DNA from: a virus
Reading direction: 5' to 3' (one strand)
IMG/VR virus record: IMGVR_UViG_3300027749_000212
Location: 1 to 41,328 of that record
Length of the DNA stretch: 41,328 bases
Shown: positions 7,195 to 37,386 of the stretch, in pieces
Layout of the letters: each line of letters opens with the position of its first letter
How positions within the stretch are numbered: position 1 is the stretch's first letter
Notes under the pieces: generated by a model
What the model saw: only the letters and a program-made list of their open reading frames with translations
Database searches by the model: none
What the model was told of the DNA's origin: nothing
Program-made: the position numbers and the translations under genes

Positions 7195-7223
7195 TAAAAA
7201 CTACATGAAATATATATGCTTTA

Positions 7224-7231
7224 CATAAATA
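7224..7231 (+). promoter_or_regulatory. T4-late-like promoter box before the GIY-YIG gene
   Basis: CATAAATA, 8 bases before the ATG at 7240. The other homing endonuclease gene in the window carries the same octamer (38547-38554, minus strand). The box lies downstream of the alternative ATG at 7216 and so supports 7240 as the start. Confidence 0.5.
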
Positions 7232-7239
7232 AATTGTAT

Positions 7240-7821
7240 ATGAAATATGGTTTTATTTATGAAATAACAAACTTAATTAATAATAAGAAATATATAGGAT
7301 TTAAAGTTTATTCGAAGGGGTGGGAACAATATATGGGTAGTAGTCGATCGTTAAAGAGTGATATTGATATATTTGGAATAGACAATTTTAAAAGAGAAAT
7401 ACTCGAAGAATGTGATACTCTAGAAGAGTTGCAGCGTAGAGAGATTTATCACCTAGAATTAAACAATGTACTAGAAAGTGATGTATATTACAATCAATCT
7501 ATACCTCACCCTCAATTTAGAAGAATTAAAGGTGGTAGTCATAGTAATAAGGGTAAAACATGGGAAGAAATTTACGGACCTGAATATGCTGCAAAAAAAA
7601 GAGAGGATTTGAGAAATAGAATAAAGGGTAAAACATGGGAAGAAATATGTGATAATAAACATAAAGTTGAAAAAAGGTTTGTAAAGGCAAAAACCAAAAA
7701 AACAGAAGAAACTAAACGTAAAATAAGTGAAGGTAGGAAAGGTATAAAATTCTCTGAAGAACATAGAAATAACCTCAGTAAGGCTAGAATACTATATCTA
7801 CACACCAAAGCAAAACAATAA
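7240..7821 (+). CDS. Free-standing GIY-YIG homing endonuclease
   Basis: 193 residues from the ATG at 7240; an in-frame ATG at 7216 would add seven residues ahead of the domain. The catalytic module opens the protein: YGFIYEITN ... KKYIGFK is the GIY...YIG pair, followed by the conserved 'DIDIFGIDNFKREILEE' and 'REIYHLEL' (catalytic Glu region). The C-terminus is modular: two 'GKTWEEI' repeats (about residues 104-145), then NUMOD3-like segments (ETKRKISEGRKG; KFSEEHRNNLSKAR) that bind DNA in this class. No intron boundaries are evident, so it appears to be a free-standing gene inserted between two small basic-protein genes. Its Lys-rich, very AT-rich coding differs from its neighbours. Confidence 0.9.
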   Translation: MKYGFIYEITNLINNKKYIGFKVYSKGWEQYMGSSRSLKSDIDIFGIDNFKREILEECDTLEELQRREIYHLELNNVLESDVYYNQSIPHPQFRRIKGGSHSNKGKTWEEIYGPEYAAKKREDLRNRIKGKTWEEICDNKHKVEKRFVKAKTKKTEETKRKISEGRKGIKFSEEHRNNLSKARILYLHTKAKQ

Positions 7822-8038: not shown

Positions 8039-8518
8039 GTGAAGTTAAAGCTTACTGATATTGAAACTACACCTCTCGAAGACGCTTCGTTAGGTAATAA
8101 CTATCTGTATAAAGATCTACAGCTCGACTTAACTAAAAAACGAACATATACTCGTGCTATCAATAATACAACATTCTTGAGTGATGTTGATAGTATATTT
8201 GACCTACAAGCTGTTACAAATAGTATAGTTACTGTATTTACTACATCACCTGGTCAGAAAATTCTCAACCCTACGTTCGGGTTAGATTTGAGAATGTATT
8301 TATTTGAACCTATAAATGAGAGTACTGCATTCTTTATTAGAGACGACATATTTAACAATCTATCTAAGTATGAACCGAGAGTGGTTGTAAAGAGAGTATC
8401 TGTTATTCCTAATATAGATGAACAACTATATGAAATTACATTACAAATAGATGTTCCACAGCTAAATATATATGGGGTATCTATTAAGAATATATTAAAT
8501 AGTGAAGGCTATATTTAA
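8039..8518 (+). CDS. 25: Baseplate wedge subunit gp25 (gpW/gp25 family)
   Basis: 159 residues, starting at GTG; the late-type box 5 bases upstream fits this start. The family signature is clear: 'VTNSIVTVFTTSPGQKILNPTFG', then 'LFEPINESTA', then 'YEPRVVVKRVSV' with the characteristic EPR. gp25 is the conserved sheath-initiating wedge protein that forms the inner baseplate core with gp6 and gp53 in contractile tails. An N-terminal extension of about 45 residues precedes the core. It is followed after 2 bases by gp6, the usual order. (Motif strings are abbreviated to key positions.). Confidence 0.92.
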   Translation: MKLKLTDIETTPLEDASLGNNYLYKDLQLDLTKKRTYTRAINNTTFLSDVDSIFDLQAVTNSIVTVFTTSPGQKILNPTFGLDLRMYLFEPINESTAFFIRDDIFNNLSKYEPRVVVKRVSVIPNIDEQLYEITLQIDVPQLNIYGVSIKNILNSEGYI

Positions 8519-8520: not shown

Positions 8521-10335
8521 ATGATCAAGGAACAACTGACAGATTATAAACTACCGCAAGACGCTTATGTAGCGTTTGACGCTCTCTCTTTGAAAGATTA
8601 TATCATTTCAAGATTGAGTAAGAATGAATTTTTTACTGATCAGGTTTATGAGGGAAGCAATCTATCTTCTATAATTGACATTATTGCTTATTCGTACCAT
8701 GTTCTTCTTTTCTATCTAAATGATACTGCCTCAGAATCAACATTTTCTCAAGCTACTCTATATGAGAATATGAATAAGATTGTAAACCTGATAGGTTATA
8801 AGCCTACTGGCAGACAAACTTCTATATGTTCAATTAACGCAACTGGCGGTACAGGTCTAGCAGTAGGTAATTACTACATTAGACGATTTTCATACTTCCT
8901 AGCCGATGGTATACAATATACGTTCTTAAAAGATTATAACTTTTCAAAAACAACTGCTAATGCTGAATCGTTAGAAGCGCTTAATAACAACGCTATACTA
9001 TATCAAGGTACAGTTCAACAATATCCAACATATACAGCTACGGGTATTAATTATGAAACACTCCCAATAGTTGTAACAAACATTGTAGACCAACAAGTAG
9101 AAAGGTTTATCTCTAGCGGTACTATAGCTGTATATGTAAAAGAAAAAAACAGCGGTACATATAAAGAATATCTTGAAGTTGATAACCTATATCTTTCTGA
9201 TAGTGGTAGTCGTGTATACGACTTAAGAATTAACGAGAATGGCAATTACGAAGTAAAATTTGGTAATGGTATTTTCGGAAGACGATTAGAAGAAGGTGAT
9301 GAAGTAGTTATATACTATATTCTTAGTGATAATGTTAATGGATTAATTTCTGCTAACACTTTGAATGGTAATAAGATCTTTACATATTCTACAGCTCTAT
9401 TTGAAACAATATACTCTCAAATAACAACTGAAGACTCAACTCTTGTTACTAATACAGTTAGTGCTGACATAACATTTAACAATCTTACTGATTCTACTTT
9501 CATAAGTAATTCAGAATCGGTTGATGACATAAGAAATAATGTTCCAAAATTTGTATCTTCTAATCAACGTTTAGTAACAACAGAAGACTTTACATCTTTC
9601 TTCGAAAAAGAGCTATCAAACATAGCTCAATCGGTATATGTAGCTTCTAACAAAGAATTTATTGATTCTTATGTGAAGTACTTCTACGATATTAGTGTTG
9701 ATCCGACTAAAGTAAACAGAGTATTAATTAACCAAGTTAATTTTGCAGATAGCTGTGATTTTAACAATGTTAATGTGTTCTGTGTACCTAAGTTTAGTAT
9801 AGCAAGCAACAATACACTTAACTATGTACCAACATCGTTCAAGAATCTTATTGTTGACATGGCTCAAAGTAAGAAGGTAGTAGGTATGGAGATAGTACCT
9901 CGTGATCCTGTATATGTAACATTTAAGTTTGGCATTACTAATCAGCAGATCGTTACACCAAGCATAGCAGACAGTTGTAAATTAGTTGTTGTTCGTGAGG
10001 CATCTAATAAGGTACAAAAAGATACATTAAAAAATCGTGTTGCAGGCATTATTACAAGTTTCTTTGACTTAAAGAATAACAATCTTGGTCAGAACGTCAG
10101 TATACGCTCACTTACTTCACAAATCTTAAGTGTTATGGGTGTTCGTTCTGTTAAAACTGTTAATACTGCAGAAAATGTAACATTCCAAGGTATTTCTTTC
10201 ATTGTTTGGAATCCTATTTATGCAACAGATGATATTGTAGTTATGAATCAAGATACTACACTACCATTTTTTAAATTCCCATATTTTAATTCACCAGAGA
10301 CGATAACTAACTTTATAGAAGTTGTAGATGAGTAA
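8521..10335 (+). CDS. 6: Baseplate wedge subunit gp6 (gpJ-like)
   Basis: 604 residues; T4 gp6 is 660. The N-terminal part 'FFTDQVYEGSNLSSIIDIIAY', with 'FYLNDTASESTFSQATLYEN' and 'VNLIGYKPTGRQTS', is the conserved start of gp6/gpJ wedge proteins, in which a helical bundle lines the baseplate ring. Middle 'YEVKFGNGIFGRRLEEGDEVVIYYI' corresponds to the conserved 'F.FGdg..G..p..G..v.v.Y' segment. The C-terminal third matches the dimerisation half of gp6 by position. It overlaps the next gene by 8 bases. With gp25 and gp53 it forms the wedge core. (Strings quoted are split conserved segments.). Confidence 0.92.
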   Translation: MIKEQLTDYKLPQDAYVAFDALSLKDYIISRLSKNEFFTDQVYEGSNLSSIIDIIAYSYHVLLFYLNDTASESTFSQATLYENMNKIVNLIGYKPTGRQTSICSINATGGTGLAVGNYYIRRFSYFLADGIQYTFLKDYNFSKTTANAESLEALNNNAILYQGTVQQYPTYTATGINYETLPIVVTNIVDQQVERFISSGTIAVYVKEKNSGTYKEYLEVDNLYLSDSGSRVYDLRINENGNYEVKFGNGIFGRRLEEGDEVVIYYILSDNVNGLISANTLNGNKIFTYSTALFETIYSQITTEDSTLVTNTVSADITFNNLTDSTFISNSESVDDIRNNVPKFVSSNQRLVTTEDFTSFFEKELSNIAQSVYVASNKEFIDSYVKYFYDISVDPTKVNRVLINQVNFADSCDFNNVNVFCVPKFSIASNNTLNYVPTSFKNLIVDMAQSKKVVGMEIVPRDPVYVTFKFGITNQQIVTPSIADSCKLVVVREASNKVQKDTLKNRVAGIITSFFDLKNNNLGQNVSIRSLTSQILSVMGVRSVKTVNTAENVTFQGISFIVWNPIYATDDIVVMNQDTTLPFFKFPYFNSPETITNFIEVVDE

Positions 10336-12430
10336 TATAAATTCAACATATGCGGATTTTAACGTTGTAGACTATCAAAATAACACTACATCGTTATCAT
10401 CTTACTGTCTATCTATTACACCACTGACGTTTGTACCCATTATACCGTCTAGCTTTGGTGAAAGTGTACGTGTAGTCTGGGATTTTGGTGATACACAAAG
10501 CTCTACTACACTATCACCTACACATATATACAGTACTCCAGGCGCTTATGCAGTAAAATTATTTGTTTATGATAAGTTTAATCAAGCAAACCTTGCTAGT
10601 ATATCTAAAACAGTAATCATTAAAGATTATATTGAAGATACTTTTAAAATAAACACTTTTAACTTAGCATTAAATTGTGGTAAATTATCTAATAGCATAC
10701 AAATAACTCAAACCTTACCATACTATTACACTAATTCAACAATAAATTATACAGTATCAGGCTCAAAATCAACTAGCTACTCAGAATTTGAACCATATAA
10801 GTATAACCACCTCAAGCGTTACAACTCTTTATTAACTAAGAACTTTATACCTTCAAGTAATAGCTACGAATTAGTAGAAGCTAATTCTATTAGCTTACCT
10901 TTAACTGCAATATATGTAAAATTAACTAACAATGCACTTCAACAATCACTTACGGGTGATAATAGTTCTATTATCGTAGGTTTTTCTGGTATAGGTACGT
11001 ACTATTACCGAGATGACTTACCTACTAACAAGTTTAATTTAGTTTTAAGTAGACAGTATGGTAATATTAATAATCCACTTAACGTAACTCTTTCAGGAGC
11101 TGTAGTTGAGAATAGTGACATATCTAAACTTTCAATTACGTCTAATGGCGTTGATGGTGATAGTGAACCTCTTTCAACATTTAACATCAATACTACTAAG
11201 TTTAATAACTCAAAAATACATTTTGTTATTAAGTTAAAGGATAGTAATAACAATACTATTAAGAATGTTAACCCACTCACCTTAAATGGGTTAAGTTCTA
11301 ATCAAATTCAAGTTAACTTAGTTAAAAATGGCGATGCACTAAGCACAACGACATATGTTATTAGTAGCTTACAAAGTACACTAACAGCACTGTCATCTGG
11401 TGGTTATTTTAGAGGCTACCTCGAATATACAAGTGATTTAACTGAACCACTAACAGGTGTTGCTTTAAGTGCTATAGCTACTTCAATTAAAACAATAAGT
11501 GGAACTTCAATTAATGGATCTTTTAATGGTTTATCTAATACATTTGATATATACCCATACGATTATTTTAAACTCTACAAAAAAGGTGAAGACTTCGACG
11601 GTGAGGCAATGTATAAGAGTTTGAGATTTCAAGAAACTCTACTTGATAAGGAAATATTCTTCGGTGATTTCCTTGGAAGTATATTTGGCGATGCAAACTC
11701 AGATATTGAAGCATTAAGTAAGAAGATAAATGAAAGAATATCTAATTTTGTTGATAACACTACTAATATTGACACGGCTGAAATTATAAGATTATTATCT
11801 ATGAGTCAGATGCTAGATAATTCAAATACAATTTTCGATCAAAATCTAGCTAACTTCCCTAACAAGATACAACGCTTAGTTAGCTTACTATCTATAAAGG
11901 ATAGTAAGTTGTTTGGTATTCAGAATAAGTTTGCTGAGAATTTTAATAGTCTAGGTAGAACAACAAACGACATATACGGCAGAAATCTCGGTACTAAAAT
12001 AGACCCATACACATACGTAGTGTCACCTACAGATAACATTGTAGCGTATGAAAAATTTAGTAGAAAATACATCTTACTAAACACATACCAACCATTACAG
12101 GGTGTTATTACGTCTCCAACACTTGATACTGAATCGAGTTTATCTTTATTAACTGAGAGTAATGATGATATACTAACTGAAGGAGTGTATTTTATAAAAG
12201 ACTATAACAATACATGGGGATGGCCGTTGATATTACCTCAGAACTTTACGTCAGCTAATATTGATACTTTTTATGAGTTCTATACGTTTGTTAATGTATA
12301 TGATGATAAATACATTGGTGGTGTGTTAGATATGAATCTTACAAACGTAACACCGAGTACTAATGATAATGTATACAATACAATTATACTTGATACACTA
12401 TATCAGTCGCTTTCTCTCAATACAAACTAA
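10328..12430 (+). CDS. PKD-domain baseplate protein in the gp7 position
   Basis: 700 residues. Residues about 20-98 form a PKD-like Ig fold with the hallmark VVWDFGDTQSS and 'HIYSTPGAYAVKLFVYD'. Residues 100-410 are beta-rich, Asn/Ser/Thr-rich and repetitive in style. Residues about 410-600 are different: helical and charged (KLYKKGEDFDGEAMYKSLRF, then 'IFFGDFLGSIFGD', 'DTAEIIRLLSMSQMLD'). T4 gene 7 follows gene 6 and encodes the outer wedge protein; this gene's place and size suggest an analogous wedge or fibre-attachment role. No gp7 motif is recognised. It has no TAAATA box of its own and is coupled to gp6 by an 8-base overlap. Confidence 0.68.
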   Translation: MSNINSTYADFNVVDYQNNTTSLSSYCLSITPLTFVPIIPSSFGESVRVVWDFGDTQSSTTLSPTHIYSTPGAYAVKLFVYDKFNQANLASISKTVIIKDYIEDTFKINTFNLALNCGKLSNSIQITQTLPYYYTNSTINYTVSGSKSTSYSEFEPYKYNHLKRYNSLLTKNFIPSSNSYELVEANSISLPLTAIYVKLTNNALQQSLTGDNSSIIVGFSGIGTYYYRDDLPTNKFNLVLSRQYGNINNPLNVTLSGAVVENSDISKLSITSNGVDGDSEPLSTFNINTTKFNNSKIHFVIKLKDSNNNTIKNVNPLTLNGLSSNQIQVNLVKNGDALSTTTYVISSLQSTLTALSSGGYFRGYLEYTSDLTEPLTGVALSAIATSIKTISGTSINGSFNGLSNTFDIYPYDYFKLYKKGEDFDGEAMYKSLRFQETLLDKEIFFGDFLGSIFGDANSDIEALSKKINERISNFVDNTTNIDTAEIIRLLSMSQMLDNSNTIFDQNLANFPNKIQRLVSLLSIKDSKLFGIQNKFAENFNSLGRTTNDIYGRNLGTKIDPYTYVVSPTDNIVAYEKFSRKYILLNTYQPLQGVITSPTLDTESSLSLLTESNDDILTEGVYFIKDYNNTWGWPLILPQNFTSANIDTFYEFYTFVNVYDDKYIGGVLDMNLTNVTPSTNDNVYNTIILDTLYQSLSLNTN

Positions 12431-12439: not shown

Positions 12440-14563
12440 ATGCTCACACTAGGGTTTCCACCAGTTCCTTTCTCTATTACAAATGTGAATGTCGATAGAC
12501 GTTTTGCTAAGGATGGTACTAGTCCGTTTAGTTTGTTAGAGTTTATTAAGACAGTTGCTAACTTAGTTAATTCAAATAACGTTACCACTTATTATAATCA
12601 TTATATTACTACATGGAATAATTTTAAGAATAAGAAGACCTCTACTTCTGATATCTTAATTGTAGAAGGTTATCGTTCATTTGTTAAAGACTTAACTCTT
12701 AACTACAATAGTGCAGCTGAGAATAAGTTTTTATCTAACATAGATTATTCCGATCCCTATGATCTTGATGTAGCTACAAAATTTATTGCAGCTAAGATTA
12801 AATCTATAGCTGACTATTACCGTGATAAGCGTGAAGAGGTTAAGCTAGAGCCTATAAGAAAAAAGTATAAAGCTTCATCTAAAGGCTTTGTAAGTTCTAT
12901 TAAAGAGAGGATAATAGAGTTTCTTGCTAATAATGCTAATCAAACAATTGTATCAGATATTGATACAATAGCGAGTAAGCTTAACGTTAACGTTGATCCA
13001 TTATATGATGCTGAGACAGGCTACTTTAACAAACAACCTGATCAGAGCGTTTATGGTTTGTATGATAGAGATTACAATGAAGATATATTTCTCAAGAGTA
13101 ATACAGAATTAGTATCTAAAGTATTTGCAGGCTTATCAACTACTGATCGAATTTTACAAGAAGTAGATGATGTATTTGATGATAAACGTGAACTTACTAA
13201 GAAATATATGGGTACAGATTTTTTCTATATATCTGCTACGCCTGTAATTAGCAATGTACCAGTTCTTAATGTACAGTCAAATACTAGTGTTAGATATAAC
13301 ACTGAGTTTATTAAAGTACTTACAACTACTTTACCTGTATCTGCTACTAGCACTACATTACCTGCATCTGCTAGCACTACTTCACTACCTCCAGGTCCTC
13401 CAGGTACTAGCACTACTTCACCACCACCTACTTTACCTCCAGGTACTAGCACTACTTCACCTCCAACTACTTTACCTCCAGCTACTAGCACTACTTTACC
13501 TCCTCCAGCTACACTACCTCCATTTGTATTTAATGATCGTAAGTATTCATGTGTTAACTTTAACTGTCTAAGTAGAAGAGATGGTAAGTTTAAAACGAAA
13601 GCAGAATGTCAAGCTTCTTGTAAAAAACCTGAGCCACCACCACCTCCGACACCACCACCGGGCGGCGATGGTGGTAAACCACCTGGAGGCGGTGGTGGTA
13701 AACCACCTGGAGGCGGTGGTGGTTGTGGTTGTAAGAGCATTCTGCTTTTTAGTTCTGGACCGGTTACAACAGACAAAAGAAACATAGAGTGTCTTAATGA
13801 AGGTGAAACAATAGATTATTTCGTAGACGATATAGTATCGTTTACTTGTACTGATCCAAACTATAAATTCATCGACCTCCGTAAATCACCCAATGCAGCT
13901 GTCGAAACTATTGTAACTCCACATTTAACTGGCGCTAGCTATAGGCATAAGTTTCAACTTGGTTGTCTGTCAGACACTGTCAATGGTAATCCAGACATTG
14001 ATACCTCTACAATGTATGGTATGGATATTATACATGTTCCAACTAAGAAAGTAACAGGTTGTAGTTATTTTATAACAGGTGATACTGGCCACCCGTCCGG
14101 AGACGTCGCTGCCGAGCCAATAACTTATGTCGGGCCTGGTCGTAATGAGTTTATTCTCAAAAAATATAAATGCTGTGGCGGTAAGCCTAATCCAACTACA
14201 TCACCTAATCCAACTACATCAACTACTCTCTGTCCTGAGTGTGACGGGCCTCCTGATCCGCCGCCGCCACCGCCACCTGAGCCTACATTGTCACCTACTG
14301 GGTCAACCACTAATCCACCTACTGGGTCAACCACTAATCCACCTACTGGGTCAACCACTAATCCACCTACTGGGCCAACCACTGACTGTCCTCCATGCTC
14401 GGATGGTGGTAGTGGATCTGATTCAACTAAAAGAGGTAGACCTAAACCATATGTAGTAAAGGGTGACCCACCTACTCTACCACCACCAACTACGTCAACA
14501 GAACCGTCGGTGCAACCACCTAATCAACCGTACAGTAATGGTGGCCCATTCCAACTCGTGTAA
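12440..14563 (+). CDS. Mucin-like, Cys-rich baseplate/fibre protein
   Basis: 707 residues with distinct zones. Residues 1-285 are a helical/charged folded domain (IKTVANLVNSNNV; SIKERIIEFLANNANQ; DRILQEVDDVFDDKREL). Residues about 295-360 are Thr/Ser/Pro repeats (GTSTTSPP.TLPP). Residues about 366-395 hold a small Cys motif, YSCVNFNCLSRRDG then 'TKAECQASC'. A Pro/Gly linker with two GGGGKPP-type units follows, then a Cys-containing beta-rich domain (about 430-580). The tail, 580-707, is again Pro/Thr-rich, with TGSTTNPP repeats and 'CPPC'. The architecture resembles a surface stalk with flexible hinges. The N-terminal domain may anchor it to the baseplate; this is inference from position. The box at 12426-12433 suggests late transcription. 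Confidence 0.72.
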   Translation: MLTLGFPPVPFSITNVNVDRRFAKDGTSPFSLLEFIKTVANLVNSNNVTTYYNHYITTWNNFKNKKTSTSDILIVEGYRSFVKDLTLNYNSAAENKFLSNIDYSDPYDLDVATKFIAAKIKSIADYYRDKREEVKLEPIRKKYKASSKGFVSSIKERIIEFLANNANQTIVSDIDTIASKLNVNVDPLYDAETGYFNKQPDQSVYGLYDRDYNEDIFLKSNTELVSKVFAGLSTTDRILQEVDDVFDDKRELTKKYMGTDFFYISATPVISNVPVLNVQSNTSVRYNTEFIKVLTTTLPVSATSTTLPASASTTSLPPGPPGTSTTSPPPTLPPGTSTTSPPTTLPPATSTTLPPPATLPPFVFNDRKYSCVNFNCLSRRDGKFKTKAECQASCKKPEPPPPPTPPPGGDGGKPPGGGGGKPPGGGGGCGCKSILLFSSGPVTTDKRNIECLNEGETIDYFVDDIVSFTCTDPNYKFIDLRKSPNAAVETIVTPHLTGASYRHKFQLGCLSDTVNGNPDIDTSTMYGMDIIHVPTKKVTGCSYFITGDTGHPSGDVAAEPITYVGPGRNEFILKKYKCCGGKPNPTTSPNPTTSTTLCPECDGPPDPPPPPPPEPTLSPTGSTTNPPTGSTTNPPTGSTTNPPTGPTTDCPPCSDGGSGSDSTKRGRPKPYVVKGDPPTLPPPTTSTEPSVQPPNQPYSNGGPFQLV
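13403..13519 (+). repeat. 39-bp coding tandem repeats (Thr/Ser/Pro)
   Basis: Units start at 13403 and 13442, with a more diverged third at 13481. Each encodes about 13 residues of the form GTSTTSPPxTLPP. Related Thr/Pro codons extend back to about 13324. The repeats stay in frame. Confidence 0.85.
13670..13717 (+). repeat. 24-bp coding tandem repeat (Gly/Pro linker)
   Basis: Two copies, 13670-13693 and 13694-13717, each encoding a GGKPPGGG-type octapeptide. They form the hinge between the Cys motif and the following domain of the same protein. Confidence 0.8.
14297..14383 (+). repeat. 24-bp coding tandem repeat (TGSTTNPP)
   Basis: Three exact or near-exact units at 14297, 14321 and 14345 and a partial fourth at 14369. 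Each encodes TGSTTNPP. The near identity suggests that copy number can vary by slippage or recombination. Confidence 0.9.
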
Positions 14564-14678: not shown

Positions 14679-14738
14679 ATGGCACTTACTAATGCTGTAG
14701 AGATATTAGCTCTGGCTATAAATATACATAATGAGTGA
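14679..14738 (+). CDS. Possible 19-residue micro-ORF overlapping the next start
   Basis: ATG at 14679 reads MALTNAVEILALAINIHNE and stops at TGA 14736-14738, overlapping the ATG of the 1203-residue gene by 8 bases in another frame. It could be a leader peptide, a vestige of a lost gene, or chance. The promoter box at 14717-14724 lies inside it, so transcripts from that box would not contain it. Low confidence. Confidence 0.2.
   Translation: MALTNAVEILALAINIHNE
14717..14724 (+). promoter_or_regulatory. T4-late promoter, exact TATAAATA
   Basis: Perfect match to the T4 late consensus TATAAATA, ending 6 bases before the ATG at 14731. Spacer TACATA. Confidence 0.7.
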
Positions 14739-17700
14739 TGTTGTTGTAAGTAATACAATTTTAGACTACTCTCTAGTGAGGTACTATAATATACCTCACA
14801 CAACTGTAGTTAATTTTTGTGCTGGATTTTTATTTCCTAATAATAAAGATTTAGTTAAAGCTGTTTGGGATTTTGGTGATGGTAATTCTGCAGTTATAAC
14901 ACTACCAAGCTCATCATATAGCAGTATTCTCAGCTCAATAAATAATGTATCTAATTTTTTTCCTAGCTGGACTACTACTACTGCTGAAGATAAGAGTGTA
15001 CTTATACCGAAATTTGATACGATTTACACATACAATGCAGACGGCAATTATATTGTTAATGTAACACTGATAGATAGCAGCGGTGTAAGCTATACTGGTG
15101 AATCTATTACAGTAACAGTTGCATCTACTAACAAAATATACACAGTTCCAGCTAGTTGGGATACTATATCACAGACCTATACAGTAGGTACTGATGTAAA
15201 TTACTTATTAGCTGATGGTCAGCCTGCTGTAACAACAGTTGCATCTTCTGTTTCAAGCTTACCGTTAACTGTAGGTTATGAAATAAAAAATATCAACCGT
15301 TTAGATATTGATTATATTGAATGGTCTTTTGGTGATGGTACGGTAGATGTTACAAGTGTTTTTGGTTCCCCTATAACTACAGATATTTCTCGTAATAACT
15401 ACACATATAGACTTTTACCATCACAATTGGTCTATGTACCGCAGGTAACTTTATACTTTAATAATAAAACAAAGTATAAAGTTCAGGTACCAACACTACC
15501 ATTGTTAGATACATCGAATATTTGTTTCGGTATTGCTGATAGTAATCAAAGCGAGGTGCTAGCTACGGCACCTTTCAATATAACACCTGTACTTAGCTAT
15601 GATTTACCTGTTGAGGTTAAATTCATCAGTGTAATTGACAAAGGCTTAAAATATATTATATGGAATTACAGTGATAGTGAATATAATGTTGTACCTGTAA
15701 CCTATACTGATAGCCTTAGCAATATGGTACAAGTTCAGGAAGTTACTCATAAGTATACTTCAGTAAACTACTATGGATTTTATCCAACATGCTTGTTTAT
15801 ATATGATAATAATGGAAGTTATTCTGCAAAAAGCTTTAAACCATCTAAACTTCTCAACTATCAATTAGGTCTTATTAATAATAAGCCAGATAGTAACGGA
15901 AATGCTGCTACAGGCAATAATTACTATATCTTTAGTACTACTAACTACGAAAAATATCAACGAATAAGTTCATTAGTTGAATATCCACCAACTAACACAG
16001 GTTTCGCTACATTACATTTAAGATTAAGCTTAGAACTAACAGATCAAATATTATACTTTGAAAAAATTGTATGGAAAGTTGGTAATAGAAAGATTACACA
16101 AGATAAAAATACATCTGAAAGCTTTGGTAAGTTAACAATACCTAATATACCTACTTCAAGCACTTTAAATACGCCGATAGATATAACTGCTACACTATAC
16201 GGTATTCCTGCTATATTTGCTGATGCTACTGGTGATAATTTCATGGTTGAGTACGACTCTTATAGTCGTCCCGTGTATGTAAATGATAAAGATTATCAAG
16301 AGTCGATTAACGAAGAATCTAAAACTACTATAGCTCGAGGGCCAATTACTCCACCGACAATCATAACGACCAATTTAGGTGTTGAGATAATAACACCTAT
16401 TATTGACACAAATGTAGTCGTTGTAGAAGAAGAAGTGCCTGTATACATTGGTAGTAACATTGTTTTTGAAAAGTTATTCACCGCTACTAACCCTATTGGT
16501 AATTTCTTAAACAGATACTACCCTACTGTAGCGTCTTCCCCGTCTAATAACTTTGTAACTAAGCGTGTTATAGGGTTCTTTAGACCTAGTAAGACTACAC
16601 CAGTCGTTGTTGATCCTGGTAAGTTTACATTTACCATAAATCTTGAATCACTTGAATATAACAAACCTTATTACTTCCCTGACCCTTACAAATACGGGAG
16701 TAACATCGAGGTTATTGATTTCTTCTCACTTACTCAATCGTTTAAGAATAATGCTAGATTAGGTTACGCTCGTAACGAGCCGAATCAACCTGCTGATAGC
16801 GTATCTTTTTATGGTTATAACTCTTCTAAGTCAAAGAATCTCAAATCTATCGTTGATAGCGGTTATTTTCACGATGAAAAGGAAGACATTTACGGAAACG
16901 TATACGGGTTACTTAAAGATAATAACAATTTTAGACAGAATATTAATTTAACTGAAGTAAAGGAAGTTTTATACTTACAACTCAACGGTTACAAGTTCTA
17001 CGATGATATTTTTGGTGAGAATAAGAGTTTTAACTATGCATTAACAGGTATTCTTAATACTCAAACTATACGCTCAGGTCTATCTACTGTTACAAATGGA
17101 TTTTCTGCCCGCTCATCACAGTATTACACACTAAACTTTGGTGATTTTAAACATATTACTGAATTTATATCACCAACTGAGGTTATAGATATTAATACAC
17201 AGTATCTACACCCTGCTTCAGTTGGTATTCGTGATGGTGCATATTTTACACTTAACGATACCGGACGCTTACCTGATCCTATACGATCTGACTTATCTAG
17301 CTTCCCTGGAACTGGCACATATTACTTTAGTACTCTTCTCGAAGCAGGTGTAAATACAGCTGTACCATATACAAGACCAACCTTTCCTACTTTATCAGCT
17401 ACATTCACACAATCTGTTAGAGTATCTGCAAATAATGGTGTAATAGATGTTGACGGTGGTTCATTCTTAACGAATTACAACACTACAGAGAGTTTCTACA
17501 GTCTGACTGAAAAGGCTTATGTAGATAGTGTTGATCCTAAAGCTGTTACTACATACACAACTAATACTACAATATCAACTAACAGTATAGTTGAACGTAA
17601 TAGCCTATTAGGTTCTGTAGTTGTAGGTGATGCTATGGGTAATTATGATAATATACTGAGTAAGTTGTCTTACATGCAAAGTAAATACCCTCTGTCAGTA

Positions 17701-18342
17701 TATCAAAACCTAACTGCAGGTATAATAAACTTCGACTTAATATACGATACTATTATTTTACAATCAGCTAATTACTTAATATGTGATAAGATCTCTGTAG
17801 TTGATGGTGAATTTATTAATCCAAAGACATCTAATATAATTACACGTTACAGAGATGATTTATTTAATACAATTTCGAATAGATACAAGGTAAATAATAA
17901 TGTATACTTTGCTACGCTTTCTACTTACGATACACCAAACACTTCAACCGCGTTTGTGTATCCAATTATTAACAAACTTGATCTAAATACACTTAAGCTA
18001 CATCAAATATTCCCAGATACAACAATATCTGATTATACAAATGATTTTAGTATTGCAACAGATGGTGTATTATACGTGCAAGCTGATACACCACAATTAA
18101 CTTATAACTCTGACCTGAATATATTTAACATTTCGTATGTATTAAAGGATCAGAATAAATTGCCGTATTTATTTACAGTAAACTTCAGAGATAATGTTAG
18201 TGATATTATAGACTATACTTATGGTTATAAGTTTGGATCTAATAACATAACAGCCGTGTTTACATCAAGCAACACTCTAAGTTCATTCAGTACATTTATA
18301 CAGGGTGGAAGTTACTCATTCAATAATTACTTAAAGTTATGA
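14731..18342 (+). CDS. Large multi-PKD baseplate/fibre protein
   Basis: 1203 residues, the largest gene here. At least three PKD-like repeats occupy the first ~370 residues: VKAVWDFGDGNSAV (about 42-55) with 'YTYNADGNYIVNVTLID'; IEWSFGDGTVDV (196-207); and a degenerate third, IIWNYSDSEY (309-318), with 'HKYTSVNYYGFYPTCLFIYD'. The central region (about 570-800) changes character, with 'NKPYYFPDPYKYGSNIEVIDFF' and 'LTEVKEVLYLQLNGYKFYDDIF', more compact and charged. The C-terminal third is beta-rich. PKD domains are usually extracellular adhesion/stalk modules; in a phage a fibre or peripheral baseplate role follows. An exact TATAAATA precedes it, and it overlaps the next gene by ATGA. Confidence 0.75.
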   Translation: MSDVVVSNTILDYSLVRYYNIPHTTVVNFCAGFLFPNNKDLVKAVWDFGDGNSAVITLPSSSYSSILSSINNVSNFFPSWTTTTAEDKSVLIPKFDTIYTYNADGNYIVNVTLIDSSGVSYTGESITVTVASTNKIYTVPASWDTISQTYTVGTDVNYLLADGQPAVTTVASSVSSLPLTVGYEIKNINRLDIDYIEWSFGDGTVDVTSVFGSPITTDISRNNYTYRLLPSQLVYVPQVTLYFNNKTKYKVQVPTLPLLDTSNICFGIADSNQSEVLATAPFNITPVLSYDLPVEVKFISVIDKGLKYIIWNYSDSEYNVVPVTYTDSLSNMVQVQEVTHKYTSVNYYGFYPTCLFIYDNNGSYSAKSFKPSKLLNYQLGLINNKPDSNGNAATGNNYYIFSTTNYEKYQRISSLVEYPPTNTGFATLHLRLSLELTDQILYFEKIVWKVGNRKITQDKNTSESFGKLTIPNIPTSSTLNTPIDITATLYGIPAIFADATGDNFMVEYDSYSRPVYVNDKDYQESINEESKTTIARGPITPPTIITTNLGVEIITPIIDTNVVVVEEEVPVYIGSNIVFEKLFTATNPIGNFLNRYYPTVASSPSNNFVTKRVIGFFRPSKTTPVVVDPGKFTFTINLESLEYNKPYYFPDPYKYGSNIEVIDFFSLTQSFKNNARLGYARNEPNQPADSVSFYGYNSSKSKNLKSIVDSGYFHDEKEDIYGNVYGLLKDNNNFRQNINLTEVKEVLYLQLNGYKFYDDIFGENKSFNYALTGILNTQTIRSGLSTVTNGFSARSSQYYTLNFGDFKHITEFISPTEVIDINTQYLHPASVGIRDGAYFTLNDTGRLPDPIRSDLSSFPGTGTYYFSTLLEAGVNTAVPYTRPTFPTLSATFTQSVRVSANNGVIDVDGGSFLTNYNTTESFYSLTEKAYVDSVDPKAVTTYTTNTTISTNSIVERNSLLGSVVVGDAMGNYDNILSKLSYMQSKYPLSVYQNLTAGIINFDLIYDTIILQSANYLICDKISVVDGEFINPKTSNIITRYRDDLFNTISNRYKVNNNVYFATLSTYDTPNTSTAFVYPIINKLDLNTLKLHQIFPDTTISDYTNDFSIATDGVLYVQADTPQLTYNSDLNIFNISYVLKDQNKLPYLFTVNFRDNVSDIIDYTYGYKFGSNNITAVFTSSNTLSSFSTFIQGGSYSFNNYLKL

Positions 18343-23376: not shown

Positions 23377-24498
23377 ATGGCAGATATACAAGTAATAAAA
23401 CTAAAAGTACGCCGTGGCACAAACAGCCAACGTCGTCTCGTTATTTTAGATGAGGGTGAGTTAGGGTACACTATAGATACACAACGTCTATATGTTGGAA
23501 CTGGAACATTATCTGGTGGTGTACCTGCTGCTCCTAAAATTCATGGTATACTTAATAGTTATACAGGCCTATCTACACTACAACCTGAAATAGGTGATAT
23601 TGTGTACGCAGGTAACTTGTTATATCAATACAATAGCTCTGGTTTATGGCAGTTTATAGGCTCTCAAGTTGATACTGGTACTATATCTTATGATGTCGAT
23701 AATCAACTCTCTGTTGCATTAAGCTCTATTAATAGTGCCTACTTAAATCAAGCTCAATTATCTAGCTCAAGCGTTGCTTTTGATGGTACAGGTCGTTTTG
23801 TTATTAATTATAATACAACACAATTTGGAATATCTGGAACGTCATTTGCTCTAGCAGCTAGCGCTATTAAGCCTATACATATCGACCCTTCAGTTGTTTC
23901 GAGAGGTTTACGAGGTGGTAATGGCGTAGCTCTTAGCGCATATGTTGATGGTGTTAGTATAGGATATAATAGCTCAAATCAACTAACAGTAATTGGTACA
24001 CCTATTTCCGCTATTTCTTATAGTAGCTTACTTTGCGGTTTTGAAGTTAACCCCTTTAATAACGCAGTTAGTACACTAGTACGAGGTGTCGATCCAAATT
24101 ATCTCGCTCTTTCAAGTGGTATTGTAACGTTCTCTAGTGGAGCTACTTCACCGTCAGTGAGTAGTACTCTTGTTGCTAGTGAGTTAGCTGCACCTATTGT
24201 TCAAAATGGTTTCGTTAGATCGATTGTATCGTCAATTTACGACCTACTTTCTTGTAACCTGTCTGGTAGTATTTACAATGGATCACCAGATCAGGTAAAA
24301 GCTGGATACACTCCTAGTTATGGTAGAACTACATTTACAGCAATATCATCAGATAGCACTGGAAATACAACATACCCTGTGCTATCATCAGCAGGATTCA
24401 TTGTATTTGAAGGTAATAGTAATGATACCGGTCTTAGCGCAAGAAACAACTCTAACCACATTCCAGGTAGATTTGCAATACCTGTGTTTACATTTTAA
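23377..24498 (+). CDS. Tail fibre with Mtd-type N-terminal domain (paralogue 1)
   Basis: 373 residues. Residues about 6-50 match the N-terminal domain of major-tropism-determinant-like phage fibres: KLKVRRGTNSQRRLVILDEG, 'ELGYTIDTQRLYVGTG', 'GG'. This small domain tends to anchor trimeric receptor-binding proteins. The remainder is Ser/Gly/Asn-rich and beta-structured, ending 'GRFAIPVFTF'. The same N-terminal domain occurs in the next gene, so the pair arose by duplication followed by divergence of the body. No reverse transcriptase or template repeat was seen, so diversity-generating retroelement action is not supported here. Confidence 0.75.
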   Translation: MADIQVIKLKVRRGTNSQRRLVILDEGELGYTIDTQRLYVGTGTLSGGVPAAPKIHGILNSYTGLSTLQPEIGDIVYAGNLLYQYNSSGLWQFIGSQVDTGTISYDVDNQLSVALSSINSAYLNQAQLSSSSVAFDGTGRFVINYNTTQFGISGTSFALAASAIKPIHIDPSVVSRGLRGGNGVALSAYVDGVSIGYNSSNQLTVIGTPISAISYSSLLCGFEVNPFNNAVSTLVRGVDPNYLALSSGIVTFSSGATSPSVSSTLVASELAAPIVQNGFVRSIVSSIYDLLSCNLSGSIYNGSPDQVKAGYTPSYGRTTFTAISSDSTGNTTYPVLSSAGFIVFEGNSNDTGLSARNNSNHIPGRFAIPVFTF

Positions 24499-24503: not shown

Positions 24504-25808
24504 ATGGGTAAATCAATCGAAATTTTAGAAAATACTTTACTTAAGCTATTAGTACGTAGTGGTTCTGATAGTGATAGAAAAACTGTTGTATTAGATTCAG
24601 CAGAAATTGGTTATACAACAGATACAAAGCGACTATATGTTGGTGATGGTCTTACTGCTGGTGGTATCTTAGTAGGTAATGTATTTAAGGGTTCAGTATC
24701 TGATGTTACCACTGGCCTGACAAATCCGGCTGTAGGTGATTTAGCATACGATACTGATAATAAAATATTATATCGCTTACAAAACAGTACATATTCAAAT
24801 TTATCTAGCTGGGAACAAATTGGTGGTGTGTATGCAGCTGCTAATAATACAATAAAAGTATCCTCAACTAATACAGTTAGTGTTTGTGCTATTTCAGCTT
24901 ATAACATTTCTTCTAATGCTCTAGGTAATTCTTTAACTCTAGATACCGGCAAGGTAACATTATCTTCTACTATAGCTATAGATAAAATCATACCTAACAT
25001 AAGCACTTATGTCACATTGCCGAGTGCTCTGAATATTAACACAATAAATTACAAGTTTCCGTCTAGTGCATTATCTTCTAATACAGTTTTAACTACAGAT
25101 AGTTCAGGTAATTTGAGTTGGGCAAGTTTTAATTCATTCATGCCAGCTGCTTCTGGTTCATCTACTATTACAATACTTTCATCTACTGTTACAGTAGGCC
25201 CAGGTTTAACTGCTTTATTACCTTCATCTACTATAACAATACCTTCAACTAATATTACAGTAGGTCAAGGTTTAACTGCTACAGTTAACGGTTTATCAGC
25301 CACGACATTCAATGCAATTTCAAGTGGTAATGTGCAGATAGGTGGATTATTTGTACCAAAGGCACATGCTACATTTACACAAGCAGGTACCGTTACGAGA
25401 AAGGCTAGTGTTGCAAGTGTATCAGCTGTAAACTTTAGTTATGTAAGTACTCAAGTTAGTAATACATTATTTGGGTTTACACCAAGACAGACTGATTCTA
25501 ACTTAGATTACCGTGGAGCTTCTGGGTACTTAATTACAACTACTGATACATTTGATCCAACAACAGTTGTAATTGATGTCGTTGCTAAAAATGCAGCTCA
25601 CTCTTGGACTAACAACTACTACAAATATGGTGAAGATCCGACAATTAAGCCATATTATAAAGCAATTGGACCACCTGGCGTTCCAACAAGTCAAATACTT
25701 GTATTCTTTTACACAATACCAATTGGTGCTTATGGTCAACCACAAGGACCTGTAGTAACATCCGGCTACGTTAGTAACGATACTAGATTTAGTGTTACTG
25801 TGTATTAA
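24504..25808 (+). CDS. Tail fibre with Mtd-type N-terminal domain (paralogue 2)
   Basis: 434 residues. Residues about 10-55 repeat the fibre anchor domain of the previous gene: LLKLLVRSGSDSDRKTVVLD, 'AEIGYTTDTKRLYVGDGLTAGG'. The middle contains 'SSNTVLTTDSSGNLSWAS', a motif typical of trimeric phage fibres (VLTTDG.GNLSW). Residues about 219-262 are a tandem repeat rich in Thr/Val/Gly. The C-terminal domain (FDPTTVVIDVVAKNAAHSW ... ILVFFYTIPIGAYG) is compact and probably carries receptor binding. Likely the receptor-binding fibre or an alternative to its paralogue. It starts 5 bases after the preceding stop. Confidence 0.76.
   Translation: MGKSIEILENTLLKLLVRSGSDSDRKTVVLDSAEIGYTTDTKRLYVGDGLTAGGILVGNVFKGSVSDVTTGLTNPAVGDLAYDTDNKILYRLQNSTYSNLSSWEQIGGVYAAANNTIKVSSTNTVSVCAISAYNISSNALGNSLTLDTGKVTLSSTIAIDKIIPNISTYVTLPSALNINTINYKFPSSALSSNTVLTTDSSGNLSWASFNSFMPAASGSSTITILSSTVTVGPGLTALLPSSTITIPSTNITVGQGLTATVNGLSATTFNAISSGNVQIGGLFVPKAHATFTQAGTVTRKASVASVSAVNFSYVSTQVSNTLFGFTPRQTDSNLDYRGASGYLITTTDTFDPTTVVIDVVAKNAAHSWTNNYYKYGEDPTIKPYYKAIGPPGVPTSQILVFFYTIPIGAYGQPQGPVVTSGYVSNDTRFSVTVY
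25158..25289 (+). repeat. 66-bp coding tandem repeat in fibre gene
   Basis: Two diverged copies begin at 25158 and 25224. Each encodes 22 residues of the type STITI.S..(V/I)TVG.GLTA. The same 66-bp period, with unrelated sequence, occurs at the left window edge. Confidence 0.7.
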
Positions 25809-25831: not shown

Positions 25832-26053
25832 ATGAAGATCAGCGAAAAAGCTAAGGCTTTTTGTGAAGAGTTTTCTGATAATGTCATATGTGATCGCACA
25901 CGACATAGTATTATCGTCAACATTGAACCTGAATATCTTAGAGTAGTTAAAAAAGAAATGGCAAAGATGGAATATAACATAGTCTTCTCTAAATACTTTA
26001 AAGTGTTAAATACAATAACAATCTGCTTTCAACAACATGCCTTACCCAGCTGA
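25832..26053 (+). CDS. Small protein upstream of the lectin-like gene
   Basis: 73 residues, not recognised. A charged helix (MKISEKAKAFCEEFSDN) is followed by 'HSIIVNIEPEYLRVVKKEMAKM' and a hydrophobic strand 'ITICFQQHALPS'. This could be a small alpha/beta fold. It has a late-type box 5 bases upstream, and the lectin-like gene begins 17 bases before its end, so it may be translated together with that adhesin and serve as its chaperone or as a minor subunit. That is inference. Confidence 0.55.
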   Translation: MKISEKAKAFCEEFSDNVICDRTRHSIIVNIEPEYLRVVKKEMAKMEYNIVFSKYFKVLNTITICFQQHALPS

Positions 26054-26711
26054 CATACTACTACCAATTACTGCAAAGTGTTTTTCTTTCAAGAATAACA
26101 CTGCGTATAATTCTAATTATGATATAACGTGGTCATATTCGTGTTTAGTATCTAGTGTTTCCGCTCAATACGGATTTTGTACATATTTAACTACACTAAG
26201 CACGTCACCACTTTCTGCGCTATCTGGCCAGTACATAGGATCCAACATTCCTTATAACATAGCATCTGTAGCATTTGATACTACAGGTTTATTTGCTCTA
26301 TCTTCTGATATTAGACCAGGCGTCTCACTAGATCGAATAAAAGTTTACTCACTTGTTGTTAGAAACAGTAGTAATCAAGTAATATACAATCAAAGCTTAT
26401 CTGGTACTAATTTTAGCTTCTATAATACTCAGCAAGTAGTGAGATGTAGATTTAGCAACCCTCAACAGTTACTTGTAATCGATTATAGAAAGAGTACAGA
26501 TCCTAATTTCACTACGTTAGCATCTGTACCATTTAGCGCTTCTATCAGCAACCCATCTAACTTAAATAATGTATATGTAGGATTTTCTTTCTGTACACCT
26601 ATTTCAACAACAAACACCAGCACTGCTTCTGCGTTTGTATATAATTTTCATACAGATGGTGTAAGAAACAACACTGCAGTTGAGACGATTACATCTTTAC
26701 CTTTGACTTAA
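26037..26711 (+). CDS. Lectin-like structural protein
   Basis: 224 residues. The order of segments is reminiscent of legume (L-type) lectin sandwiches: 'YGFCTYLTTLSTSPLSAL', 'NIASVAFDTTGLFAL' (where lectins have 'AVEFDT'), 'RIKVYSLVVRNSSNQVIYNQ', 'QQLLVIDYRKSTDPNFTTLA' and 'NNVYVGFSFCTPIST', the last resembling the 'vyvGFSast' strand. There is no signal peptide, as expected for a virion protein. A carbohydrate-binding adhesin at the end of the fibre cluster is the best guess; metal-binding residues cannot be confirmed by eye. Confidence 0.6.
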   Translation: MPYPADILLPITAKCFSFKNNTAYNSNYDITWSYSCLVSSVSAQYGFCTYLTTLSTSPLSALSGQYIGSNIPYNIASVAFDTTGLFALSSDIRPGVSLDRIKVYSLVVRNSSNQVIYNQSLSGTNFSFYNTQQVVRCRFSNPQQLLVIDYRKSTDPNFTTLASVPFSASISNPSNLNNVYVGFSFCTPISTTNTSTASAFVYNFHTDGVRNNTAVETITSLPLT

Positions 26712-26735: not shown

Positions 26736-27623
26736 ATGAGAAAACTCACTATAGGTATGTGTACCTACGATGATTTTGATGGAGTGTATTTCACTATACA
26801 ATCTATTAGAATGTATCATAGTGAAGTTTTGGATGATATCGAATTTATTATTGTTGATAATAACCCCTTGAGTAAGCATGGTGAGAGTCTGAAACACTTT
26901 ACAACAAGCATACAAGAACCATATCAATATATACCATTTACCGATTATACATCGACAACGATAAAAAATATTGTATTTGAGAAAGCTAATACACCATATG
27001 TTTTATGTATTGATTGTCATGTATTGCTTGAAGCTGGTAGCATTAAAAAATTAATAGAGTTTTATGATAAAAATGCTGCACGTGGGTTATATCATGGTCC
27101 TTTATTATACGACAATTTAGAAGATATCAGTACTCATTTTAATTTAACATGGAGTAGTCATATGTGGGGTCAGTGGGGAACAGATTCAAGAGGCTTTGAT
27201 AGAGATAATGAACCATTTGATATACCTGCTCAAGGCTGTGGTCTGTTTACTTGTAGAAAAGCTGATTGGCTAGGCTTTAATCCTAACTTCCGTGGCTTTG
27301 GTGGTGAAGAAGGTTATATACACGAGAAATACCGTAGAAATAACAGAGAGGTTAAATGCTTACCGTTTTTAGGTTGGTGTCACCGATTTGGAAGACCTAA
27401 TGGTATACCTTATACAAATACCTATAATGATCGGTATCGCAACTATATAATTGGTGCTCTTGAGATCGGACTAGATACAGACGCAATTGAAGATGCTTTT
27501 CTAACTGTAATACCTGAAGATACACGAGAGTATATAAAAGATGAGGTAGTTCAGATTTTTGAAAAAGACGAGGTAGTTGAGATTTTTGATACACCTAAAA
27601 CGAAGTGTAATTGTAGGTCTTAA
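26736..27623 (+). CDS. Family-2-like (GT-A) glycosyltransferase
   Basis: 295 residues. N-terminal 'KLTIGMCTYDDFDGVYFTIQSI' and 'IEFIIVDNNP' are the nucleotide-binding strands of GT-A/GT2 enzymes. 'TPYVLCIDCHVLL' occupies the place of the DxD metal site, in the unusual form DCH. 'FRGFGGEEGYIHEKYRRNN' matches the acceptor-side segment of galactosyltransferase-like enzymes, and 'HRFGRP' follows. The C-terminus is an acidic repeat (DEVVQIFEKDEVVEIF) ending in CNCRS. It transfers a sugar from an activated donor; the acceptor is unknown. Its place immediately after the adhesin gene, and its own late-type box, suggest modification of virion or fibre proteins late in infection. Confidence 0.78.
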   Translation: MRKLTIGMCTYDDFDGVYFTIQSIRMYHSEVLDDIEFIIVDNNPLSKHGESLKHFTTSIQEPYQYIPFTDYTSTTIKNIVFEKANTPYVLCIDCHVLLEAGSIKKLIEFYDKNAARGLYHGPLLYDNLEDISTHFNLTWSSHMWGQWGTDSRGFDRDNEPFDIPAQGCGLFTCRKADWLGFNPNFRGFGGEEGYIHEKYRRNNREVKCLPFLGWCHRFGRPNGIPYTNTYNDRYRNYIIGALEIGLDTDAIEDAFLTVIPEDTREYIKDEVVQIFEKDEVVEIFDTPKTKCNCRS

Positions 27624-35338: not shown

Positions 35339-36088
35339 CTATTTTAAATAATCAATAACACCCAATTCTTTATGTATTATATTAATTGGTTTTTGTGTAT
35401 TTTTATACATTGTACTTAATTCTACAAACTTACAATACTCTGACCACTTAGGTATTATTTCGTAACATGAATCAACACTATATTCTTTATTACATTTTAC
35501 AGCTTCATTAGTCATATCATGCTCTGTACTATACGTAGCATGGTAGTTTATCCCTCCCCAGTTGTACACATAATCTATATTGTTTTCATCTTTTTGATTA
35601 AACTTATTATCAATTCTATTGTAAAAGTCTACATCTTCACCTTTTGTTATATCAGCATAACCACCACATCTAGCCCAACCTTCTCGCTTGAGAGAACCAG
35701 CGCTACTCGAACAACCAGAAACATAGAACTTGTCTTGCGTTACATAATATGCTGCTGTGTTCCAGTAAAAAAATGCATCAGGGTGACTAATGTGAAATTT
35801 TACGTGATTTGATATACGACTAGGTAGAAAAATATCATCATCATCATAATGCATATATAAATCGTAATGACCAAACGAAACACCTATATTACGCTTACTA
35901 CCTAATGTTATTTTTTTTGTTAGATTTAATACATGAACATTTTCAATATCACATGTTAACTGTACATTTTTATCATCGTTAATAAAAATCAACTCTTTAT
36001 CGGTGTGATCTTGATCTAAGAAACTTGCTAAAACTCTACCTAATAAAGGTAGTCTACCGTAAGTTGGGCATATTACTAATACTTTCAT
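35339..36088 (-). CDS. Family-2 glycosyltransferase
   Basis: 249 residues. N-terminal KVLVICPTYGRLPLLGRVLAS and 'ELIFINDD' form the nucleotide-sugar fold; 'LGSKRNIGVSFGHYDLYMHY' leads into DDDD (the metal-binding DxD equivalent) and 'IFLPSRISNHV'; later 'KREGWARCGGYADITKGEDVDF' provides the acceptor-side ED motif. The donor and acceptor sugars cannot be told. It starts 10 bases after the fucosyltransferase-like gene stop and ends next to the DHH promoter. With that gene it forms the inserted block between repeat copies A and B. Confidence 0.87.
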   Translation of the reverse strand: MKVLVICPTYGRLPLLGRVLASFLDQDHTDKELIFINDDKNVQLTCDIENVHVLNLTKKITLGSKRNIGVSFGHYDLYMHYDDDDIFLPSRISNHVKFHISHPDAFFYWNTAAYYVTQDKFYVSGCSSSAGSLKREGWARCGGYADITKGEDVDFYNRIDNKFNQKDENNIDYVYNWGGINYHATYSTEHDMTNEAVKCNKEYSVDSCYEIIPKWSEYCKFVELSTMYKNTQKPINIIHKELGVIDYLK

Positions 36089-36098: not shown

Positions 36099-36839
36099 TT
36101 AAACATCGTGTTTTATAATTTTATCATGATAAATGTCAGTAGCTTCACTATTATTCACGAACCACTTGGAAGGGAAATAAGATGTTTTATTGCCAATCAA
36201 AGCAGCCCACCAAGAAAAAGTGGAGTTGCTGCCGACTAATGTATCACACTTTGCCATGCATGCAAGCTCTTTAATATCGAAACTTGATTTTAAGATATCG
36301 AATTTATATTTGGCGAACTCATTTATTACATGATTTGGATCATCAGTAAATATTTTAATGTTTTTATTTTTAAATTTCTCAAAGAAATATTCAAAATATT
36401 CTGTATGACACACGTAGTGTATGGTTGGATGATTCAAATAATCACCCCGCCTAATATGAAATCCCACCTCAATTTTTACATCGTCGTTGATTTTGGGCAA
36501 GTCCAATAAAGATATAAATTCATCTTTAACATCTTCGAAATATTTTAAAGATTGAAAGTATCCATTTAATGATACATCTCCATCATAATATGGCAATTCA
36601 TCGTAGTTAAATCTTTTCTCTTGTATTATTGTGACATCTTCGGTGATGTAATTTCCATATTCGAAATTTTTAAATATTGTGTATTCGTATGCCAAAGGAT
36701 CTGTGCCTTGACTAGCAAACCAATTATTGGGATTTACAATTAATTTTTTACCATATTTTTTGGCGTATGCGTATCCAGCAGCTATTTGAAATAGCTGATT
36801 ACCCACACCACCAATGACATTTACATAACAATTATTCAT
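36099..36839 (-). CDS. Alpha-1,2-fucosyltransferase-like enzyme (GT11)
   Basis: 246 residues from the ATG at 36839. Family 11 motifs: VIGGVGNQLFQIAAGYAYA near the N-terminus, GFHIRRGDYLN in the middle (the HxRRGD motif that binds GDP-fucose) and 'LVGSNSTFSWWAALIG' near the C-terminus. The open frame continues upstream to an ATG at 36878, but those 13 extra codons lie in the decayed DHH copy, and family similarity starts at MNNCYVNVIGG, so 36839 is chosen. It would transfer fucose (or a related sugar) to a galactose-containing glycan. The likely promoter is the TATAAATA of the decayed copy, 107 bases upstream. Confidence 0.87.
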   Translation of the reverse strand: MNNCYVNVIGGVGNQLFQIAAGYAYAKKYGKKLIVNPNNWFASQGTDPLAYEYTIFKNFEYGNYITEDVTIIQEKRFNYDELPYYDGDVSLNGYFQSLKYFEDVKDEFISLLDLPKINDDVKIEVGFHIRRGDYLNHPTIHYVCHTEYFEYFFEKFKNKNIKIFTDDPNHVINEFAKYKFDILKSSFDIKELACMAKCDTLVGSNSTFSWWAALIGNKTSYFPSKWFVNNSEATDIYHDKIIKHDV

Positions 36840-36870
36840 TTTAAAATTGAAATAATATAATTTTGTCTTT

Positions 36871-36941
36871 ATAGACATGTCTTAGTGCGAGAGCTAAGCA
36901 AGCACCGTCTAAATCATTATCTGCCATATAGCAATCTTCAC
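36871..36941 (-). pseudogene. Decayed 5' fragment of the DHH phosphoesterase gene
   Basis: Beginning with GTG at 36941, the reading matches the DHH gene start (VKIAIW), but one base is missing shortly after TGG, so the frame hits TAG within 11 codons. Allowing for the lost base, it continues as DNDLDGACLALALRHVY. The fragment then merges into the fucosyltransferase leader. It is a relic of duplication, not a functional gene. Confidence 0.85.
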
Positions 36942-36969: not shown

Positions 36970-37386
36970 TCAACCTTTACTCAAGAATTCCAATGATGAG
37001 AATGAACTATCACCAGAATCAAAATCTACATCTTCTGTCTGTGTGATTGTTAGTGTAGTATAGTCAATACTCATAGGTTGAGTATGTCCTCGTGGGCCAT
37101 ATCGATTCTTCATCATACCAAGTCTAATAATATTGAGCTCTCTGTCTTCTTCATTCTGGAAGATGGACACAATAACGTCAGCTGTAGCTGCGAGGCCGAC
37201 ACTTTCTGAGATAGTAGCTAAGTCAGGGTTATCGTGGCCAAATCCACTATTATGTGTTAGTATATTATTTGCATAAAATAAATTATCATCAGATACAGAT
37301 ATATCTACAGTTACTGTCTCACCAACATCAACTATGCTAACAATTTCGTCATATTCCCAAGAATGCTTTACATTTGTTAATTTCAT
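36970..37386 (-). CDS. 41: Replicative helicase gp41-like, C-terminal half with split-intein C-part
   Basis: 138 residues. Residues 1-46 are the C-terminal intein fragment: 'DVGETVTVDISVSDDNLFYA' and then NNILTHN, the penultimate His and final Asn needed for splicing, followed by Ser47 as the +1 nucleophile. Residues 47-138 are the end of a DnaB-type RecA domain: SGFGHDNPDLATISESVG, 'ADVIVSIFQNEEDRELNIIR', 'KNRYGPRG' (arginine-finger region), and an acidic C-terminus (DVDFDSGDSS). It has no N-terminal helicase part and would be useless without ligation to the product of 38568-39881. Its start lies 38 bases inside the homing endonuclease gene, in another frame. Confidence 0.93.
   Translation of the reverse strand: MKLTNVKHSWEYDEIVSIVDVGETVTVDISVSDDNLFYANNILTHNSGFGHDNPDLATISESVGLAATADVIVSIFQNEEDRELNIIRLGMMKNRYGPRGHTQPMSIDYTTLTITQTEDVDFDSGDSSFSSLEFLSKG
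37249..37386 (-). other. Split intein, C-terminal fragment (46 residues)
   Basis: Encodes MKLTNVKHSW... to the HN at the splice site. Block F-like 'VDISVSDDNLFYANNILTHN' is close in style to known gp41-type split intein C-parts. Cleavage is predicted between Asn46 and Ser47 (Ser codon 37246-37248). Confidence 0.92.

Follow-up and report, generated by a model that had tools for sequence, protein, structure and literature searches.

The product of gene A, in the 41,328-base record of an uncultured virus analysed here (the window), is probably a tail or baseplate protein of the virion, in which a docking N-terminal domain is followed by a C-terminal stalk of about 430 residues that displays disulfide-stabilised cysteine modules. 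It would have arisen by the splitting of an ancestral protein at one junction, and its length and module number would change by duplication and deletion. A wider proposal, which is advanced tentatively, is that the four-cysteine module is an undescribed mobile unit common to uncultured viruses and exported bacterial proteins, and that one viral lineage split a core tail protein, with the junction fixed, so that it could bear an extensible stalk in which modules are gained, lost and exchanged, a surface display tunable in length and number.

Gene A is an ORF for 707 residues on the plus strand (12440-14563, ATG to TAA) that coincides exactly with the coordinates of the original prediction, and the same ORF was found in an independent contig (L001). 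An analysis carried out with the Tandem Repeats Finder software has revealed four in-frame tandem arrays inside the gene, which include the predicted 39- and 24-bp repeats and an additional 18-bp array, and the YSCVNFNC...CQASC motif and the further cysteine domain that had been described were both located (Table 1). The protein contains 16 cysteines (2.3 per 100 residues) versus 0-5 in the other tail-region ORFs counted, with 0-1.2 per 100 residues in 13 of those 14 ORFs and 2.2 in the ORF at 26037-26711. Proline makes up 12.6% of the product, the GC content of the gene is 39.5% versus mostly 29-38% in the other tail-region ORFs counted, and the combined density of threonine, proline and serine was reached by none of 2000 shuffled proteins. 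Gene A thus has the long Pro/Thr/Ser-rich tandem repeats by which mucin-type sequences are defined, and its product matched no Pfam or PHROGs family. The DNA identity among the repeat copies is 100% in the TGSTTNPP array (77% expected) and 95% in the 13-residue unit GTSTTSPPxTLPP (71% expected), values that none of 2000 synonymous-codon shuffles reached in either case. This identity is above what the protein requires, and therefore both repeats are DNA-level duplications.

Table 1. Position of gene A, its parts and neighbouring genes in the window.
Feature	Position	Strand	Description
gp25 homologue	8039-8518		Upstream of A; Pfam/PHROGs
gp6-like wedge protein	8521-10335		Upstream of A; Pfam/PHROGs
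PKD protein	10328-12430		Upstream of A
A, conserved N-domain (aa 1-265)	12440-13234	+	Predicted helical; ends in KKYMGTDFFYIS; alignment of 20 relatives
A, Thr/Pro stalk 1 (aa 293-361)	13316-13522	+	Contains the 39-bp repeats
Array in stalk 1	13397-13503		39 bp, 2.7 copies, 94%; encodes GTSTTSPP[P/T]TLPP; Tandem Repeats Finder
A, four-Cys module (aa 369-394)	13544-13621	+	YSCVNFNC...CQASC; module alignment
A, Pro/Gly linker (aa 397-428)	13628-13723	+	Contains the 24-bp GGGGKPP repeats
Array in linker	13654-13723		24 bp, 2.9 copies, 93%; encodes GGGGKPP; Tandem Repeats Finder
A, second Cys-rich domain (aa 429-579)	13724-14176	+	8 Cys, bracketed by CGC and CC
A, Thr/Pro stalk 2	14180-14398	+	18-bp and 24-bp repeats; two C-P-x-C pairs (aa 598-601, 650-653)
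Array in stalk 2	14186-14225		18 bp, 2.2 copies, 95%; encodes PNPTTS; Tandem Repeats Finder
Array in stalk 2	14292-14383		24 bp, 3.8 copies, 98%; encodes TGSTTNPP; Tandem Repeats Finder
Gene B	14731-18342	+	PKD; downstream of A
B, first 570 aa	14731-16440	+	PKD-containing; found only in the split lineage
B, aa 571-1203	16441-18342	+	Homologous to the C-terminal part of the relatives' one-piece protein
Two Mtd_N-domain tail-fibre proteins	23377-24498, 24504-25808		Downstream of A
Four glycosyltransferases	26736-27623 (+), 35339-36088, 36099-36878, 39889-40557 (-)		GT2, GT2, GT11, Glyco_tranf_2_5

The order of genes in the tail cluster is gp25, gp6-like, PKD protein, A, B (a PKD/tail protein) and the Mtd_N fibres. 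As in T4-type baseplate/tail clusters, the series starts with gp25 followed by gp6, both of which have Pfam or PHROGs matches, and the gp6 of the window has distant relatives in Synechococcus phages. Unlike these two, neither the N-domain of A nor the B part matched a PHROGs or Pfam family, with the exception of PKD in B. Modelling of the whole A protein with AF2 without relatives gave a pLDDT of 35, which is unusable beyond a weak hairpin-plus-helix sketch of the four-Cys module, and the AF2 model of the N-domain (pLDDT 60) found no structural match in a fold search against the PDB. A short distance upstream of the gp25 gene lies an ORF (7216-7821, plus strand) that resembles by eye a GIY-YIG homing endonuclease. 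Repeats were also observed in other genes of the window, namely a 66-bp tandem repeat (25157-25280, 1.9 copies, 87%) within the second Mtd_N tail-fibre gene and a 27-bp duplication (27536-27589, 92%) at the 3' end of the first GT2 gene.

Relatives of A were drawn from IMG/VR contigs. In 67 of the 71 loci with readable architecture, the C-terminal part of B is fused to the N-domain of A in one protein, mostly of 880-1050 residues where complete, and the two are encoded by separate genes in the other four (the near-identical contig L038, L040/L012, L014 and L042), a count that leaves out seven loci whose ORF reaches the end of the stretch. One of these seven, L041, is very probably split like L042. 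The two-gene state, with the stalk on the first gene and the PKD stretch on the second, is confined to the lineage of the window. In the fused protein of L015 the N-domain (aa 7-278) continues directly into the B part (278-869). The N-domain of A is homologous to that of the one-piece family and is closed, as there, by a GTDFxYxS-type motif in the alignment of 20 relatives, whereas the N-domain and B are not joined in one polypeptide in the window. The split loci were grouped together in the gp6 tree with moderate support (85/87) and fused L015 as sister, under a long-branch warning for the latter. With a fused outgroup, the split looks derived, and A looks like one half of a split ancestral protein. 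The recurrence of the split in L012/L040, L014 and L042 argues against an assembly error. These relatives, together with the composition and the gene order, support the earlier description of A as a flexible stalk in a baseplate-region protein, since its N-domain belongs to a one-piece tail-operon protein in 67 of them.

From the fused relatives we infer that an insertion event is the simplest reading of the split. The ancestral gene, which would have coded for about 900-1050 residues, would have received the stalk and its Cys modules together with a stop, a second start and the first, PKD-containing part of B, all at a single junction directly after KKYMGTDFxYxS. No intermediate between the fused and split states was seen among the relatives found. 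In L018 (7091-12046) and L021 (8001-12437) a similar N-domain is followed by very long extensions of other kinds, with TPT-type repeats in the former and InlB-like repeats in the latter, so the junction region looks permissive. A tblastn search of a phage collection with A, the fused protein and the modules found no relatives in cultured phages, returning two chance-level matches only (E 3-4), and no N-domain relatives were found in bacterial genomes. The gap between A and B measures 167 bp in the window and about 30 bp in L012 and L014, and a frame of 19 codons, MALTNAVEILALAINIHNE, at 14679-14738 overlaps the start of B. The sequence TATAAATA at 14717 in this gap was considered as a late promoter for gene B and dropped, being no commoner than in shuffles.

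The stalk takes different forms in the split relatives. About ten four-Cys modules are carried on TTRPPP linkers in L042, several W-x-C...C-x3-C units accompany poly-Pro in L014, and a CYC-type Cys stretch, Pro linkers and a CC...CC domain make up the stalk of L012, the last with a layout similar to that of the second Cys-rich domain of A, which gave no database match. The N-domains of L041 and L042 are identical at 257 of 276 positions (93%), and these two proteins differ in their linkers, where gaps reach 31 residues, with one module fewer in L041 at one place and with 15- and 18-bp arrays detected by Tandem Repeats Finder in the linkers of both. These differences in linkers and module number demonstrate copy-number change between close relatives, as anticipated when it was suggested that the length can vary. 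In the population of the window itself no such variation was seen, as L001, the one near-identical contig compared, has the same copy numbers, with 7 SNPs in 11.3 kb and none of them in A. The stalk is a swap zone for modules and linkers, and tandem duplication or deletion would then alter both its length and its number of modules.

The four-Cys module follows the pattern Aromatic-x-C-x(2-14)-C, then G-x-[FYH]-x-T-x3-C-x3-C, to which the window copy conforms, and four cysteines, one glycine and one threonine were invariant across 12 aligned copies. The window copy was one of the seeds of the module profile and thus its HMM score is not independent. No significant Pfam or PHROGs match was obtained for the module, and nothing relevant to such a module in phages was found in the literature, for which open-licence papers were covered. 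A DNA pattern for the second half (G-x-Y-x-T-h-E-E-C-x3-C) matched 30 stretches of viral contigs, and the first half ([YWF]-x-C...C), which was not part of the search, lay upstream in 21 of these 30 hits versus 12 of 176 background G-x-Y-x-[ST] sites, among which there are true modules as well. Near-duplicates are present among the 30 hits, and the first half was found in 15 of the 21 distinct sequences. Three hits (L131, L138 and L145) resembled sigma factors on visual inspection and were set aside as chance. The same module recurs in unrelated viral proteins, with tandem copies in L121, L126 and L133 and Thr/Pro linkers in L133 and L142.

Six pattern hits were obtained in 84,980 bacterial and archaeal genomes. 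Three of them look like real modules, two of which lie in proteins with an apparent signal peptide (by eye), L152 from Cryomorphaceae, whose end resembles by eye a sorting domain for type IX secretion, and L149 from Paceibacterota. Both proteins show the same four-Cys pattern as the window, in tandem copies, with Thr-rich linkers in L149 (Thr- or Pro-containing), although they are cellular exported proteins and A is a tail-region protein. Disulfides are the usual state of cysteines in exported bacterial proteins, and the presence of the module in such proteins supports an oxidised, extracellular, disulfide-bonded state. The predicted disulfide stabilisation therefore gains indirect support from bacterial proteins with apparent signal peptides, and the bonds themselves are presumed.

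The DNA-level duplication of the repeats and the poor conservation of the stalk sequence among relatives would also be expected of a neutral spacer, a low-complexity filler arising from replication slippage in a gene end that tolerates it, devoid of binding function. This explanation is unlikely, because the four cysteines, the glycine and the threonine of the module are invariant while the linkers drift, and because the same module is carried by unrelated proteins. Marginally less probable is a mucin-like stalk whose threonines are O-glycosylated by the phage glycosyltransferases, with the glycans, in shielding or recognition, as its point. The Thr/Pro-dense repeats and the four glycosyltransferase genes of the record are consistent with it, but the longest linker of L014 is poly-Pro with little Thr and no glycosyltransferases were detected in the partial records of split L040 and L042. 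Glycosyltransferases were dropped as a marker of stalk glycosylation because relatives that lack the stalk carry counterparts too. GT2 matches downstream of the tail genes were also found in the L014, L047 and L048 records.

It is rather improbable that the cysteines bind metal instead of forming disulfides. The distal C-P-x-C pairs would then hold zinc or iron like zinc ribbon knuckles, and the other cysteines may follow. CPEC and CPPC are spaced like two knuckles in A, and CDPC and CPLC occur at comparable places in L012. However, a repeat array of changeable length separates the two pairs in A, and the four-Cys module is found in exported bacterial proteins, where disulfides are usual. With respect to known folds, the last cysteine pair of the module, C-x3-C after G/N-x-F/Y-x-T, resembles the C-terminal half of Kunitz/BPTI domains (PF00014), whereas only four of the six cysteines are present. 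The module scored 12.0 bits (E 0.26) with the Kunitz/BPTI Pfam profile, below the gathering cut-off of 21 bits, and a sequence search of solved structures gave just weak Kunitz matches among chance hits. The resemblance is weak and partial, and membership is not claimed. It is very improbable that the module is a truncated Kunitz domain directed against host proteases, since its best matches in Pfam and the PDB, although they are Kunitz proteins, score below the cut-off and cover 12-36 positions, and the first two Kunitz cysteines and the inhibitory loop are absent.

We infer that the A protein is present in virions, with its stalk exposed and its cysteines in disulfides. In this tail protein the N-domain would dock in the tail like its counterpart in the one-piece ancestral protein, and the C-terminal part would be a flexible, protruding Thr/Pro/Gly stalk that holds the Cys modules off the particle. 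The disulfides would form after lysis, and the modules would probably bind weakly to the host surface or to glycans on it. Such an adhesive role is suggested by analogy with modular phage adhesins with Ig-like, PKD and BACON domains (T4 Hoc), in which the displayed domains gave adhesion to epithelial cells (PMC13370021). Those adhesins are likewise mosaic surface proteins of phages with PKD among their domains, whereas the protein of the window would display a Thr/Pro stalk with four-Cys modules beside a PKD protein in the tail operon. One tail-gene junction has thus been pinpointed at which phages of the window's group insert and vary surface modules, and a sequence signature has been gained for a small Cys module missed by Pfam and PHROGs. 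The questions are raised of whether host attachment is tuned by the length of the stalk and the number of its modules, and of whether virion proteins synthesised in a reducing cytoplasm use post-lysis disulfides.

Outside the tail cluster, the coding sequence of a gp41-like helicase is interrupted (36970-39881, minus strand). Its N part (38568-39881) ends by eye in an intein-like segment that starts with CLDIDTEI, the stretch at 36970-37386 reads by eye as the C part of an intein ending in NILTHNS and then helicase sequence, and a separate ORF between both parts (37349-38539) is endonuclease-like by eye. Together these pieces resemble a split intein of the gp41 type, its halves flanking an endonuclease-like gene.
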